Positions 13,292-53,702 of a DNA stretch of 64,000 nucleotides are shown here, one piece after another; the first letter of the stretch is position 1; each line of letters starts with the position of its first letter. The translations under genes were made by a program, and so were the position numbers. The notes under the pieces are model-generated. The model had not been told where the DNA came from. It did not search any database and saw only the letters and a list, made by a program, of their open reading frames with translations. The DNA comes from Pseudomonas parafulva (GTDB lineage: Bacteria; Pseudomonadota; Gammaproteobacteria; Pseudomonadales; Pseudomonadaceae): assembly GCF_000800255.1 (NCBI RefSeq), contig NZ_CP009747.1, forward strand, positions 4,216,001-4,280,000, written 5' to 3'.

Positions 13292-13421
13292 GATGCTGTC
13301 GCTCCTGACCCGGCCCTCATCGGGGGTACTCCCTGTACCCCTAGGCCACTCCGACCCTGAATCGATCAAAGCGGCCCGGCCCCCTGGTCATGTGCAGCCC
13401 CTCATCGGCGCCGCGCATCAT

Positions 13422-13453
13422 GGAAGCCGCAAGCTTGAAGGCTGCAAGCTTCC
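13422..13453 (-). terminator. Hairpin after the Ivy-like gene
   Basis: GGAAGC (13422-13427) pairs with GCTTCC (13448-13453), with further partial pairing of GCAAGCTT copies inside. It starts 27 bases past the stop of the minus-strand operon. It lacks a T-tract and resembles repeated AAGCTTGCAGC-type hairpins of pseudomonads. Confidence 0.4.
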
Positions 13454-13479
13454 ATCTGATTACAAACGACGACCGCTGG

Positions 13480-14445
<966 letters not shown>

Positions 14446-14493
14446 GCCGGCGACTCCTGCAAATGTTGTTATCCAACTCTTGCAGTAGGTATT

Positions 14494-14508
14494 GCAGCCT
14501 GCATGCCA
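14494..14508 (-). promoter_or_regulatory. Sigma-54 promoter of the small-membrane-protein/DUF1328/Ivy-like operon
   Basis: The minus strand reads TGGCATGCAGGCTGC: -24 GG and -12 GC with exactly 10 bases between. The predicted start near 14482 gives a 37-base leader. The 13 bases CCTGGCATGCAGG are identical to the promoter at 15482, and both are preceded by AGGTTTTTTA about 23-24 bases upstream. Confidence 0.7.
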
Positions 14509-14533
14509 GGTTTTTAATCAAATAAAAAACCTT

Positions 14534-14543
14534 ATTAATCAAT
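14534..14543. promoter_or_regulatory. Possible activator half-conserved site upstream of the 14494 promoter
   Basis: ATTAATCAAT is in an A/T-rich stretch about 26 bases upstream of the -24 element. It resembles the perfect palindrome ATTGGTTAACCAAT found upstream of the BON gene promoter, but with lower symmetry. The assignment as an AlgB site is a guess. Confidence 0.25.
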
Positions 14544-14620
14544 GACTTAACAAATAAATCAAAACCACTGGGGAACGTATCCTGCACGATGACGTCGTGC
14601 AGCCCGTGCGTTTTGCACGA

Positions 14621-15442
14621 TCACCCCTCGACCTTGCTGGCGACCTTCAAGAGATCGGCGTCGACCCCACGAACGCCCAGGATCTGCCCGGCGATCTGCA
14701 CCGCGATGGACTTCTGTTCATTACTCACCACTTCACCGGACAAGCGCACCATGCCGTCCTGGCTCGCCACCTTTATATTCGGGCCGTCCAGGTTGCGACT
14801 GAAGCGCAAGCTGCTTTGCACCTTGTCGATGATCCAGGCATCGCTGGGCTGCGGCCCGCTCGGCGCGGTCACTGGCTTGTCGCGGGCCAGCGCCATCGCG
14901 GCCGAGTCCAGGCTGATCAGGTTATTGACCAGATACACACCCTCGGTCGTTCGGGCGATCACCCCGGCCTGTTCCTTGGCCTCGACGTTGTCCACTCGCC
15001 CACGCATGGTCACCACGCCCTCGCGGCTCTCGACCTCGATCGACGCCTTCTCGGTTACCCGGCTCCACAACAGCCGAGCGCGAATGACGGAGGTGAGGGT
15101 GGCGTCTTCCAGGCGCTGGGCATAGGCCCGCAATTCCAGCGGTCGCTCGGCCAGTTGCGGATTGACCTGTAGCTGGTTGTCCACCCGCTCGATACCCCGG
15201 GTAGCCAGGGCCACGCGCTCTGCCAGATCACGCTCGACCGGGTTTTCCACTTCGCCACTAAGGCGGGCCTGGGCGCCCTCGACCTGGACTTCGATGCGGA
15301 ACGGGTTGAGCAGTTTGTTAAGGGACACCGCTGTCTGCACCGCGCCCTCCAGGCGAGCGTCCTGTACGGAATCGGCAAAGGCGGGGACCGCTGCCAACAA
15401 CAGGCTGGCGGCCAGGACGGTATGACGCGAGAACAAAGACAT
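14621..15442 (-). CDS. Periplasmic protein with three BON domains
   Basis: The protein has 273 residues. A signal peptide ends at ADA/FAD near residue 23. Three BON-like repeats follow at about residues 30-95, 105-170 and 195-270, each with the pattern V-x-G-x-V and a central hydrophobic strand (ARLSGEVEN, VTMRGRVDN, VRLSGEVVS). BON domains occur in OsmY-like proteins and bind membranes or peptidoglycan. The ATG at 15442 is preceded by AAAGGAG. It is transcribed divergently from algB. Its upstream region carries a canonical sigma-54 promoter and a palindrome, so AlgB is the likely activator. Confidence 0.82.
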   Translation of the reverse strand: MSLFSRHTVLAASLLLAAVPAFADSVQDARLEGAVQTAVSLNKLLNPFRIEVQVEGAQARLSGEVENPVERDLAERVALATRGIERVDNQLQVNPQLAERPLELRAYAQRLEDATLTSVIRARLLWSRVTEKASIEVESREGVVTMRGRVDNVEAKEQAGVIARTTEGVYLVNNLISLDSAAMALARDKPVTAPSGPQPSDAWIIDKVQSSLRFSRNLDGPNIKVASQDGMVRLSGEVVSNEQKSIAVQIAGQILGVRGVDADLLKVASKVEG

Positions 15443-15481
15443 TGGGCTACTCCTTTATTCGTGACAAATCCCACGCTCATC

Positions 15482-15496
15482 GCAACCTGCATGCCA
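15482..15496 (-). promoter_or_regulatory. Sigma-54 promoter of the BON-domain gene
   Basis: The minus strand reads TGGCATGCAGGTTGC: -24 GG and -12 GC with exactly 10 bases between, a near-consensus match including the TTGC. The predicted start near 15470 gives a leader of about 28 bases before the ATG at 15442. Confidence 0.78.
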
Positions 15497-15529
15497 GGCT
15501 GAAAAAGCGTAAAAAACCTAACTATTTCA

Positions 15530-15543
15530 ATTGGTTAACCAAT
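15530..15543. promoter_or_regulatory. Palindromic upstream activator site, candidate AlgB site
   Basis: ATTGGTTAACCAAT is a perfect 14-base palindrome in the BON/algB intergenic region, 33 bases upstream of the -24 element and 111 bases upstream of the algB ATG. It could serve both genes. Confidence 0.45.
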
Positions 15544-15654
15544 AACCTAGGCAACAGCTAGCATGCATAGGGCGTAATCCTTCAGAATCGACCATGCAAC
15601 TTGCCCGATTTTTCCGACACTAACCCAGATCATTCCCACAGGAGCGCAGGAAAA

Positions 15655-17001
15655 ATGGAATCAGCCCAGGATAACCAAGGCCGCATTCTGCTGGTGGACG
15701 ACGAGTCCGCGATCCTGCGTACCTTCCGTTACTGCCTCGAAGACGAGGGCTACAACGTCGCCACGGCCAACAGTGCTGCCCAGGCAGAGACACTGCTGCA
15801 GCGCCAGGTGTTCGATCTGTGCTTCCTCGACCTGCGCCTGGGTGAAGACAATGGCCTGGATGTGCTGGCGCAAATGCGTATCCAGGCGCCATGGATGCGG
15901 GTCGTCATCGTCACCGCACACTCGGCGATCGACACCGCGGTGGACGCCATCCAGGCTGGCGCCGCCGATTACCTGGTCAAGCCCTGCAGCCCCGATCAAC
16001 TGCGCTTGGCCACCGCCAAGCAGTTGGAGGTGCGGCAGTTGTCGGCTCGACTGGAAGCGCTCGAAGGCGAAGTGCGCAAACCCAAGGACGGCCTGGATTC
16101 GCACAGTCCACAAATGATGGCGGTGCTGGAAACCGCACGGCAGGTGGCCACCACTGATGCCAACATTCTTATCCTCGGCGAGTCGGGTACCGGCAAGGGC
16201 GAGTTGGCCCGCGCCATCCACGGCTGGAGCAAACGCGCACGCAAGGCCTGCGTCACCATCAACTGCCCGTCGCTCAACGCCGAGCTGATGGAGAGCGAAC
16301 TGTTCGGTCACACCCGCGGGGCCTTTACCGGCGCCAGCGAGAGCACCCTTGGACGGGTCAACCAGGCCGATGGCGGCACCTTGTTCCTGGACGAGATCGG
16401 CGACTTCCCGCTGACCCTGCAACCCAAGCTGCTGCGCTTCATTCAGGACAAGGAATACGAGCGGGTGGGCGATCCGGTCACCCGTCGCGCCGATGTGCGC
16501 ATCCTGGCGGCAACCAACCTCAACCTCGAGGAAATGGTGCGCGAGAGTCGCTTCCGCGAAGACCTGCTGTACCGCCTCAACGTCATCACGTTGCACCTGC
16601 CGCCCCTGCGCGAGCGCAGCGAAGACATCCTCACCCTGGCCGACCGTTTCCTGGCGCGCTTCGTCAAGGAATACTCGCGTCCGGCCCGCGGCTTCAGCGA
16701 CGAAGCCCGCTCGGCACTGCTCAATTACCGCTGGCCCGGCAACATCCGCGAACTGCGCAACGTGATCGAACGCGCCAGCATCATCTGCCCGCAGGAGCGC
16801 GTGGAAATCACCCACCTGGGCATGGGCGAGCAACCCACCGGCAACGCCCCACGGGTCGGCGCAGCCCTGAGCCTGGACGAGCTGGAACGCGCGCACATCG
16901 GTGCAGTGCTGGCCGCCAGCGACACCCTCGACCAAGCCGCCAAGACGCTCGGCATCGACGCCTCGACGCTGTACCGCAAACGCAAGCAGTACAACCTGTG
17001 A
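15655..17001 (+). CDS. algB: NtrC-family response regulator AlgB
   Basis: The protein has 448 residues. A receiver domain (residues 10-125) carries phospho-acceptor Asp59 in FLDLRLG. A sigma-54 activator AAA+ domain has Walker A GESGTGKG at about residue 175 and GAFTGA at 222-227. A C-terminal Fis-type helix-turn-helix reads [19 protein letters not shown]. The ATG at 15655 fits GCAGGA upstream and the length of known AlgB proteins. In P. aeruginosa, AlgB with its kinase KinB controls alginate and virulence genes. The intact GAFTGA loop means it can contact sigma-54, and two sigma-54 promoters lie directly beside it. It overlaps kinB. Confidence 0.95.
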
Positions 17002-18776
17002 AGTGGCACATGAAGCTGCGCACGCGGCTGTTCCTCAGCCTTTCGGCGCTGGTGACCGTCGCGCTGCTGGGCCTGGCACTGGGGCTGATCAGCGTGCTGC
17101 AGATGGCCTCGGTGCAGCAGCAGATGGTGCGCGAGACCAATCACACCCTGGAAATCGGCCTGAAGCTGCGGCAGAACCTGGGTGAGCAGCTAACGCTGAT
17201 CCTTGACCCGCAGACCGATCCGAAAAGCCTGACCCACCTGCAGGACAGCTTCAGCACGCTGTTGGCGAACGGTCTGGAGCAGGGCGGCGAGCGCACGGGC
17301 TTTGGCAAGGCGCAGAGCCACTACCCAAGCTTTCTCCGGGCCTACCGCGACAGCCCAGAGCCGTGGCGCAGCATGGGCCTGGATAACCCACTGGGCGCCG
17401 CCTTCAACCAGGTGCGCAACGACCTGATCGACTCGCATCGCCAGGCACTGGAGCAGATCGCCCGCAGTGAAGAGCACACCCGCGAGCGCGCATTGCTGGT
17501 CAGCGGAGTGCTCGGCCTGATGGGGCTGACGGTGGTGGTGCTGGGCTTCGTCACCGCGCACAACCTGGCGCGTCGCTTCGGCCAGCCGATCGAGGCGCTG
17601 GCCAAGGCCGCCGACCAGGTCGGCCAGGGCAACTTCGAGGTGACCCTGCCGATCACTCAAGCCAATGAGCTCAGCCTGCTGACACGCCGCTTCGGCCTGA
17701 TGGCCGACGCCCTGCGCAAGCACCAGGCCACTAATGTCGACGAACTGCTGGCCGGGCAGCAGCGCTTGCAGGCAGTGCTCGACAGCATCGACGACGGCCT
17801 GCTGATCATCGATCGCCAGGGCCGTCTGGAGCACCTCAACCCGGTCGCTCAGCGCCAGTTGGGCTGGGACGCTTCGCGGGTCGGCAGCAGCCTGGCCGAA
17901 GCACTCAATCGACCTGAGCTGGAGCAGCAGATACGCCAGGTCCTGCGCGGCGGCAGCCTGGACCGTGCGCCGGAAGACCTGAGCATCGAGATCGACGAAG
18001 AAACCCGGCTGCTGACCTTCAGCCTGACCCCGGTCAGCCACCCTCAAGGACCGATCCTGGGCGCAGTGATGGTGCTGCACGACGTCACCGAGCAGCGCGC
18101 CTTCGAGCGCGTGCGCAGCGAGTTCGTCCTGCGCGCCTCACATGAGTTGCGCACACCGGTTACCGGCATGCACATGGCCTTCGGCCTGTTGCGCGAGCGG
18201 GTCAAGTTCCCACCCGAGGCCCGCGAGCACGACCTGCTCGACACCATCGGCGAAGAAATGCAGCGCCTGACCCAACTGATCAACGACCTGCTCAACTTCT
18301 CCCGCTACCAGAACGGCTTGCAGAAGCTGGAGCTGGCGCCCTGCGCCATCGACGAACTGCTCGAGCGGGCGCAGGCGCGCTTCGCCGAATCGGCCGCGGA
18401 CAAACAGATCGAGCTGGTCAGCGAGCTCGAGCAACCCTTGCCGCGCATCCAGGCCGACGCCGCGCAACTGGACCGGGTGCTGGACAACCTATTGCACAAC
18501 GCCATCCGCCACACCGCCAGCGGCGGTCACATCCGCCTGCATGCACGGCGACATGCCGAGCGCGTCATCGTCAGTGTCGAGGACGATGGCGAGGGCATCG
18601 CCTACGGCCAACAGGGACGGATTTTCGAACCGTTCGTGCAGGTCGGGCGCAAGAAAGGTGGCGCCGGCCTGGGCCTGGCGCTGTGCAAAGAGATCGTGCA
18701 ACTGCATGGCGGGCGCATGGGCGTGTTCTCACGGCCAGGGCAGGGCACGCAGTTCTACATGGCGCTGCCGGTCTGA
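16998..18776 (+). CDS. kinB: Sensor histidine kinase KinB
   Basis: The protein has 592 residues from the GTG at 16998, which overlaps the algB stop; an ATG at 17010 (588 residues) is equally possible. The layout is TM1 (about residues 10-33), a periplasmic domain to about 165, TM2 (about 167-190), HAMP, PAS (LDSIDDGLLIIDRQGRLEHLN), HisKA with phospho-acceptor His382 in SHELRTPVTG, and HATPase with N, G1 and G2 boxes (DNLLHNAIRH, DDGEGI, GAGLGLALCKEI). It is the inner-membrane kinase/phosphatase partner of AlgB. The signal it senses is not visible in the sequence. Confidence 0.94.
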   Translation: MKWHMKLRTRLFLSLSALVTVALLGLALGLISVLQMASVQQQMVRETNHTLEIGLKLRQNLGEQLTLILDPQTDPKSLTHLQDSFSTLLANGLEQGGERTGFGKAQSHYPSFLRAYRDSPEPWRSMGLDNPLGAAFNQVRNDLIDSHRQALEQIARSEEHTRERALLVSGVLGLMGLTVVVLGFVTAHNLARRFGQPIEALAKAADQVGQGNFEVTLPITQANELSLLTRRFGLMADALRKHQATNVDELLAGQQRLQAVLDSIDDGLLIIDRQGRLEHLNPVAQRQLGWDASRVGSSLAEALNRPELEQQIRQVLRGGSLDRAPEDLSIEIDEETRLLTFSLTPVSHPQGPILGAVMVLHDVTEQRAFERVRSEFVLRASHELRTPVTGMHMAFGLLRERVKFPPEAREHDLLDTIGEEMQRLTQLINDLLNFSRYQNGLQKLELAPCAIDELLERAQARFAESAADKQIELVSELEQPLPRIQADAAQLDRVLDNLLHNAIRHTASGGHIRLHARRHAERVIVSVEDDGEGIAYGQQGRIFEPFVQVGRKKGGAGLGLALCKEIVQLHGGRMGVFSRPGQGTQFYMALPV

Positions 18777-34560: not shown

Positions 34561-35268
34561 ATGAAGCCGTTCGCCTCCCGTTATCTGCTTGTTGCCGTCT
34601 TTTCGCTGTTCCTTGCCGCCTGCTCCTCGGCGCCGGTCGAACCGCCCGCTGCCCCGGAACAGCCCGACGCCTGGCAGCAGTTGCAACAGAACATCGCCAG
34701 CAACGAGCTGGCCACCGCCGAAGATCAACTCGCCACGCTGCAAGCGCAGTCGCCAGACGACGCCCGCGTCGAGCAGTATCATCGCCAGTTGGCCGAAGCC
34801 TACCTGCAACGCAGCCAGATCGTGTTGCAGAAGGGCGACGTCAACGCCGCTGCCACCGCGCTGGCCCGAGCGCGTGCCTTGATGCCACAGGCGCCGGCTC
34901 TGACCGGCGGCGAAGCCGTGGCACAGGCCCGCCAGGCCGAGCTGGACAAGGCCGAGGCCGCACTCAAGGCTGCCGAGTCCAAACCCCAGGCTCGGGTCAT
35001 CGATCCGGCAGCACCGAGCACGGTAATTGCGTTGAAAACCACGGACATCGCGGCCATGCGCCGGCAACTGGACGACATTGCCGCCGACGTGGTGAATTAT
35101 CACTGCGAAGTGGTTTTCCAAGTGCCGCGCATCCAGGACGCGCCTTGGCTGAAGACGTTGCTGCAAAAGCGCGTCAGCAAGCTCGATGCCAGCTTCCCGC
35201 TGAAACAGAAGCATGAAATCCAGCGCGCCTTGCCGGCCCAAGTGGTGCTGGTTCCGCATCAAAACTGA
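34561..35268 (+). CDS. Conserved lipoprotein (PA5502-like)
   Basis: The protein has 235 residues. The lipobox FLAAC gives the lipidated Cys near residue 21. Helical, alanine- and glutamine-rich repeats of TPR-like spacing cover about residues 35-140. A conserved C-terminal part reads NYHCEVVFQVPRIQDAPWLKTLLQ. The function is unknown. AGTCGCAGGA before the ATG supplies the ribosome site. The gene is alone, preceded by 119 non-coding bases and followed by a bidirectional terminator shared with katE. Confidence 0.75.
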   Translation: MKPFASRYLLVAVFSLFLAACSSAPVEPPAAPEQPDAWQQLQQNIASNELATAEDQLATLQAQSPDDARVEQYHRQLAEAYLQRSQIVLQKGDVNAAATALARARALMPQAPALTGGEAVAQARQAELDKAEAALKAAESKPQARVIDPAAPSTVIALKTTDIAAMRRQLDDIAADVVNYHCEVVFQVPRIQDAPWLKTLLQKRVSKLDASFPLKQKHEIQRALPAQVVLVPHQN

Positions 35269-53480: not shown

Positions 53481-53702
53481 TCAACCGCGCTTGTAGCTGA
53501 TTTCCTTGGTATCGCCTTCGCAAGTGCCTACGACCTTGTCCTTGGCGGTACCTTTGTCGACGATATCCAGCGTGTAGCTTTGCACACCCTTGGCATCGAG
53601 CTTGCTCGCAATCTCAGCCTTGAGTTCTTCACACGGCTTGCCGGCCGCCATTGCGCTGCCTGCAAGCACCATCAAACCTGCTGCGAGAAACACTTTCTTC
53701 AT
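53481..53702 (-). CDS. DUF1161 periplasmic protein (copy 2)
   Basis: The protein has 73 residues. Signal peptide MKKVFLAAGLMVLAGSAMA is followed by KPCEELKAEIASKLDAKGVQ, SYTLDIV and GTCEGDTKEISYK. It is a clear paralogue of the protein at 51504, with the same two cysteines and overall layout. Function unknown. Ribosome site AAGGAACG before the ATG. Confidence 0.85.
   Translation of the reverse strand: MKKVFLAAGLMVLAGSAMAAGKPCEELKAEIASKLDAKGVQSYTLDIVDKGTAKDKVVGTCEGDTKEISYKRG

Follow-up and report, generated by a model that had tools for sequence, protein, structure and literature searches.

Two sigma-54-type promoters beside algB and a predicted AlgB-IHF-sigma-54 envelope regulon in Pseudomonas

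The 64,000-nucleotide stretch of Pseudomonas parafulva DNA analysed here (the window) carries two promoters next to algB, one (P1) upstream of a gene for a BON protein and the other (P2) upstream of an operon for a small protein (orf94), a DUF1328 membrane protein and an Ivy-family lysozyme inhibitor. Both are most probably sigma-54 promoters activated by AlgB, within an envelope-stress regulon in which KinB-AlgB would act together with sigma-54 and IHF. An earlier note on this DNA had proposed the two promoters as AlgB targets, and the proposal gained strong support from the conservation of the elements, from unlinked promoters built in the same way and from co-occurrence with AlgB; direct activation is what we infer from these three lines. 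In the mechanism envisaged, which extends to sigma-54 dependence, to the roles of phosphorylation and KinB and to a putative physiological purpose, AlgB, probably phosphorylated, would bind two tandem 15-bp CGTGCA-N3-YGCACG sites, IHF would bend the DNA where a further site begins, 40-41 bp before the -24 box, and the AAA+ ring of AlgB would then open the RNAP-sigma54 complex. P1 and P2, together with unlinked promoters of genes for an OsmY-like BON protein, a DUF2383 protein, a DUF3509 protein and, in relatives, a membrane protein of about 300 aa, would thus make up an envelope and osmotic-protection regulon under KinB-AlgB.

The two promoters and the genes around them

The genome was searched as a single contig of 5,087,619 bases. 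The word TGGCATGCAGG-N-TGC was found in exactly 2 copies in these 5.09 Mb, both at the places where the earlier note had put its promoters, and a whole-genome search with the pattern TGGCATGCAGGNTGC likewise returned 2 matches, P1 and P2, and 0 in the reversed control. Both elements keep the GG-N10-GC spacing attributed to them, and inspection confirmed that they have 13 identical bases in common (CCTGGCATGCAGG) as well as an upstream block, AGGTTTTTTA, which adjoins the IHF-type sites of both promoters (Table 1). Judged by sequence, it is nearly certain that P1 and P2 are sigma-54 promoters, and dependence on rpoN is predicted for both. The long identity between them was nevertheless rejected as a sign of shared control, since P1 of most close relatives reads TGGCACATTGGTTGCG and what is conserved is the core plus the upstream activator sites (UAS). 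The letters of the -24/-12 spacer of P1 differed in most of the fetched relatives with the sigma-54 core kept, and across loci the spacer varied (TGGCACATTGGTTGCG, TGGCACAGGGCTTGCG and others) around constant core letters, a drift that fits the prediction from sigma-54 recognition. The window holds two other sigma-54-like sites with 11/12 consensus letters, at 35176-35191 (-) and 53591-53606 (+); these share an identical word, TGGCATCGAGCTTGCT, and their likeness is confined to those 16 bases.

Table 1. Coordinates of promoter elements and genes in the window (1-based positions of the stretch).
Feature	Position	Strand	Remarks
Ivy-family lysozyme inhibitor, P2 operon	13480..13950	-	PF08816, E 1.2e-43
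DUF1328 small membrane protein, P2 operon	13947..14108	-	PF07043, E 4e-16
orf94, small protein with hydrophobic stretch, first after P2	14161..14445	-	ORF
P2 sigma-54 -24/-12 element TGGCATGCAGGCTGCA	14493..14508	-	putative promoter of orf94-DUF1328-Ivy; 11/12 consensus letters
P2 IHF-type site TAAGTCATTGATT	14537..14549	-	9/9 letters; starts 41 bp upstream of -24 T
P2 UAS2 CGTGCAGGATACGTT	14574..14588	-	8/12 letters; starts 80 bp upstream of -24 T
P2 UAS1 CGTGCAAAACGCACG, proposed AlgB site	14605..14619	-	11/12 letters; starts 111 bp upstream of -24 T
BON gene, 273-aa protein with three BON stretches, putative P1 target	14621..15442	-	PF04972, E 5e-48
P1 sigma-54 -24/-12 element TGGCATGCAGGTTGCG	15481..15496	-	putative promoter of the BON gene; 11/12 consensus letters
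P1 IHF-type site TAACCAATTGAAA	15525..15537	-	8/9 letters of YAANNNNTTGATW; starts 41 bp upstream of -24 T
P1 UAS2 TACGCCCTATGCATG, degenerate	15562..15576	-	7/12 letters; starts 80 bp upstream of -24 T
P1 UAS1 CGGGCAAGTTGCATG, proposed AlgB site	15593..15607	-	10/12 letters; starts 111 bp upstream of -24 T; also just upstream of algB
Putative AlgU-type promoter of algB, CAACTT-N16-ACTAA	15597..15623	+	overlaps UAS1; conserved in an alignment-free listing of algB upstream regions
algB	15655..17001	+	PF00072, PF00158, PF02954; response regulator, sigma-54 activator domain, Fis-type HTH
kinB, sensor histidine kinase	16998..18776	+	PF16767 KinB_sensor, HAMP, PAS, HisKA, HATPase_c

AlgB carries the features of an enhancer-binding protein, with the phosphoacceptor D59 and, as the earlier note had pointed out, the GAFTGA loop, located at residues 222-227. 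Its HTH core, LGID[A/V]STLYRKRK, was shared by all ten AlgB sequences compared, including that of the window. In NCBIfam the protein scored best against TIGR02915, the model of a PEP-CTERM-box response regulator, without reaching the cut-off (379.2 vs 502.6 bits). No family match was found for orf94 in Pfam or NCBIfam. Between the Ivy gene and the next gene, at 13420-13455, lies an imperfect inverted repeat, ATGGAAGC...GCTTCCAT, which contains CAAGCTT words and is REP-like.

Conservation of the upstream architecture

Orthologous loci were sought in 149 Pseudomonas genomes, of which 146 were matched in the BON protein search (many only by short, weak BON matches) and 121 in the Ivy protein search. 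Eighty stretches were fetched and annotated by tblastn, three named contigs being added to the genus genomes; this named collection (L008-L010) may duplicate genomes already in the genus sample, and the nearest of its three relatives was Pseudomonas wayambapalatensis, with a BON protein 86% identical. In most of the 80 stretches algB-kinB is divergent from [BON]-[orf94]-DUF1328-Ivy; tblastn did not find BON in 46 of them (L095-L140), and six (L141-L146) have DUF1328-Ivy unlinked to algB within the stretch fetched, the P2 cassette still being kept. A P2 element with at least 10/12 letters, accompanied by UAS1, was present upstream of DUF1328 in 100 of 103 loci, the combination being missing from L154, L159 and L161, and a P1 element with at least 11 letters preceded the BON gene in 46 of the 57 loci with BON and algB and was missing in the other 11. 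Neither the 57 nor the 103 loci include L171-L173, BON relatives of 32-34% identity that do not lie beside algB, or L174, from the same genome as L027.

Upstream of the -24 box, tandem 15-bp inverted repeats of the form CGTGCA-N3-YGCACG were conserved, starting about 110 and 80 bp away. We scored them in 153 site rows (48 P1, 51 P2 and 54 P2 in loci without BON), which include L174 and extra sites in L036, L102, L122 and L163. UAS1, with at least 8/12 letters, started 106-113 bp upstream of the -24 T in 147 of the 153, mostly at 109-111, and UAS2 mostly at 77-82 bp. Between enhancer and -24 box a candidate IHF site was present at both P1 and P2, scored against YAANNNNTTGATW, which we take as the IHF consensus. 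Such a site, with 8 or 9 of 9 letters, was predicted in 93 of 99 P2 sites (4.5% in shuffles), and 92 of those 93 started 40 or 41 bp upstream of the -24 T; the corresponding figure was 28 of 47 for P1 (2.7% in shuffles), L174 being counted within both the 99 and the 47. P2 of the window has every element: UAS1, UAS2, IHF-type site and -24/-12.

The earlier note had pointed instead to a perfect palindrome upstream of P1, ATTGGTTAACCAAT, as an activator site. The palindrome does exist, at 15530-15543, as the only exact copy in the genome, but the role assigned to it did not hold: it was not conserved in relatives, including L008, where only the IHF-type core remains, it has no copy at the second promoter, and it overlaps the IHF-type site TAACCAATTGAAA. 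A better candidate for the activator site is the tandem CGTGCA-N3-YGCACG repeat, which that note had overlooked. One 15-bp UAS by itself does not suffice for genome searching, giving 46+47 matches with one mismatch allowed vs 49+61 in the reversed control.

Unlinked promoters, co-occurrence with AlgB and alternative readings

A loose composite pattern of these elements matched five places in the own genome and none in the reversed control: P2, an OsmY-like BON gene (C1:78311), a DUF2383 gene of the PA2169 family (C1:164485), C1:2693062 and C1:4704422. P1 itself escaped, as the pattern does not admit its GGCA variant. The search for tandem sites added a gene for a DUF3509 protein near C1:2714926, which has both a sigma-54 element and an IHF-type match, TAAGTCATTGATT; this gene (about 1925-2368 of L325, C1:2713000-2717500) is preceded by three TGCA-N3-TGCA repeats. 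In relatives the cassette also stands upstream of some small proteins and of a membrane protein of about 300 aa (L185, L192, L198, L203), for which Pfam gave no convincing match. A common upstream site at fixed spacing thus recurs at several promoters, those with identical sites having been listed once. Seven further matches (L209, L210, L212, L213, L226, L256 and L280) have a UAS2 of only 4-6/12 and look like chance matches or other promoters. UAS2 is no clean discriminator, given that the accepted OsmY-like promoter L271 also scores 6/12. The composite matches of L226 and L280 lie upstream of GlnA-like ORFs, recognised as such by us and presumably regulated by NtrC, so the pattern is not AlgB-specific. 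Tandem sites sought without a sigma-54 element in ten genomes, among them the AlgB-less G118 and G138, gave many coding or terminator-like matches.

The composite pattern was found in 144 of the 149 Pseudomonas genomes, with 1-5 matches each and 2 matches in all in the reversed control. AlgB (E <= 1e-170) was present in 144 as well, and the genomes without the pattern were the very ones without AlgB (G079, G093, G118, G123 and G138), so that all 149 agree. Of 293 genomes sampled across the order, 14 carried AlgB (E <= 1e-140). The pattern matched 19, made up of these 14, 5 of which also belong to the genus sample, and 5 of the 279 AlgB-negative ones; the reversed control gave 0 in the rows listed. 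The five AlgB-negative matches (L209, L210, L212, L213 and L226) all have a UAS2 of at most 6/12, and an IHF-type match of 8/9 occurs at L213 alone. Fisher values of 1.7e-9 (genus) and 4e-20 (order), uncorrected for kinship, overstate the evidence because the genomes are related. Only weak OsmY-like matches, 29-42% identical over part of the protein, and no close orthologue were found in the AlgB-less genomes, so that regulator and targets may have been lost together. In G224, a genome of another family, an AlgB 75% identical is directly divergent from tandem UAS, a 9/9 IHF-type site, a sigma-54 element and a BON gene; its loci L211 and L249 place the divergent cassette beyond Pseudomonadaceae, for which transfer and ancient origin are both possible.

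Taken as a whole, the sequence evidence makes AlgB very likely the activator of P1 and P2. What counts against it is the weak UAS2 of P1 (7/12), the loci in which P1 or P2 elements are missing, the IHF-type site found at only 28 of 47 P1 sites, the five AlgB-negative genomes with the pattern, and algD, for which the tandem-site search of ten genomes found no promoter with the motif. The strongest competitor, which we consider improbable, is that the sigma-54 promoters are driven by another enhancer-binding protein distributed nearly as AlgB is, algB being a passenger neighbour. AlgB was the one activator profiled and its binding is predicted from sequence, and in L141-L146 the P2 operon keeps its cassette away from algB, as this alternative would allow; yet no AlgB-like activator gene was found in those six fetched stretches, presence and absence match AlgB exactly in 149 genomes, the cassette of G224 lies directly beside algB in another family, and an order-wide activator is excluded because 274 of the 279 AlgB-negative genomes lack the pattern.

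Less probable still is that AlgB binds these sites mainly to repress, or works via the AlgU-type promoter in front of algB, with a minor part left to the sigma-54 elements. Such a role would suit the algB-proximal site (CGGGCAAGTTGCATG), which remains in most loci without P1 or the BON gene and overlaps the putative AlgU-type promoter. It sits poorly, though, with the intact GAFTGA loop and with the fixed UAS/IHF/-24 spacing at unlinked promoters, near which we know of no AlgU-type element. Chance consensus matches in A/T-rich intergenic DNA are a negligible explanation: a consensus match is weak by itself, as the two further 11/12 sites in the window illustrate, but the drifting spacers, the fixed spacing and the reversed controls all speak against it.

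Possible link to AlgU and relation to known systems

The spacing of the CAACTT-N16-ACTAA element upstream of algB resembles that of AlgU promoters, and its function as the promoter of algB is presumed from this. AlgB may thereby exert feedback on the AlgU-type promoter of its own gene. We lean, if only a little beyond an even judgement, towards a broader interpretation, in which the conserved main task of AlgB in Pseudomonadaceae would lie outside alginate, in a dispersed AlgB-IHF-sigma54 regulon whose products protect the envelope and guard against osmotic stress (BON proteins, DUF1328, Ivy, DUF2383, DUF3509 and the membrane protein of about 300 aa), with a tandem site of its own. Its connection to AlgU would come from the overlap between the algB-proximal AlgB site and the -35 of algB's AlgU-type promoter. 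If true, this would join the sigma-22 and sigma-54 envelope responses by feedback. In P. aeruginosa AlgU activates algB (PMC13001231), and Lol inhibition raises algB 5.2-fold and kinB 4.2-fold (PMC7685553).

Published P. aeruginosa data also point to co-regulation. One expression table lists PA4738, PA4739, PA5481 and PA5482 (PMC3557286), a second has PA4738, PA4739 and PA5482 (PMC10413270), and a third shows PA5481 (Ivy) along with the BON domain-containing PA4739 (PMC9431628). PA4738 and PA5482 have been termed protective against osmotic stress (PMC10734507), and PA5482-PA5481 is treated as an operon whose expression falls under low shear (PMC4981712). The passages on the co-regulation of these four genes do not name AlgB. 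PA4739 is probably the orthologue of the OsmY-like gene of this genome.

The kind of system, an enhancer-binding protein with IHF and sigma-54, is already known, while the AlgB assignment, the site model and the target set appear new, provisionally, as set against the portions of the literature searched, in which neither a site model for AlgB with sigma-54 nor any of these genes as a direct AlgB target was found. That literature includes, in the passages covered, an HT-SELEX atlas that contains AlgB (PMC8041468) and mention of a P. syringae AlgB/KinB ChIP-seq study (cited in PMC11957545). The analysis provides a concrete AlgB site model with predicted direct targets in 144 of the 149 Pseudomonas genomes sampled, and would tie the uncharacterised families DUF1328, DUF2383 and DUF3509 to one predicted regulon. 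P2 could serve as a ready reporter for finding the signal of KinB, whose ligands are still called unknown in a 2026 review (PMC13001231).

The gene pair is the same as KinB-AlgB of Pseudomonas aeruginosa, where AlgB is described as a member of the NtrC family that has GAFTGA and D59, with KinB acting as its phosphatase (PMC6932827). The portions of that literature covered here deal with algD, biofilm and virulence, with no sigma-54 regulon of BON, DUF1328, Ivy and DUF2383 genes and no such site, and treat AlgB as a regulator of alginate, biofilm and virulence even though its sigma-54 contact loop is intact. Unphosphorylated AlgB binds three sites at the algD promoter according to a review (PMC10418997), whereas the motif described here found no algD promoter in the ten genomes searched for tandem sites.

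The promoter layout itself, with tandem enhancers, a -24/-12 element and an IHF site between, is that of NtrC-dependent and other IHF-assisted sigma-54 promoters. The NtrC site is GCACCA-N3-TGGTGC; the half-sites found here differ from it, the activator is probably AlgB and the predicted targets are envelope genes. A second parallel is the ZraSR envelope response, in which a sensor kinase and a sigma-54 activator serve envelope protection. KinB-AlgB likewise pairs a kinase with a sigma-54 activator, but AlgB matches the ZraR model far below cut-off and is not a member, and its sites and targets are different.
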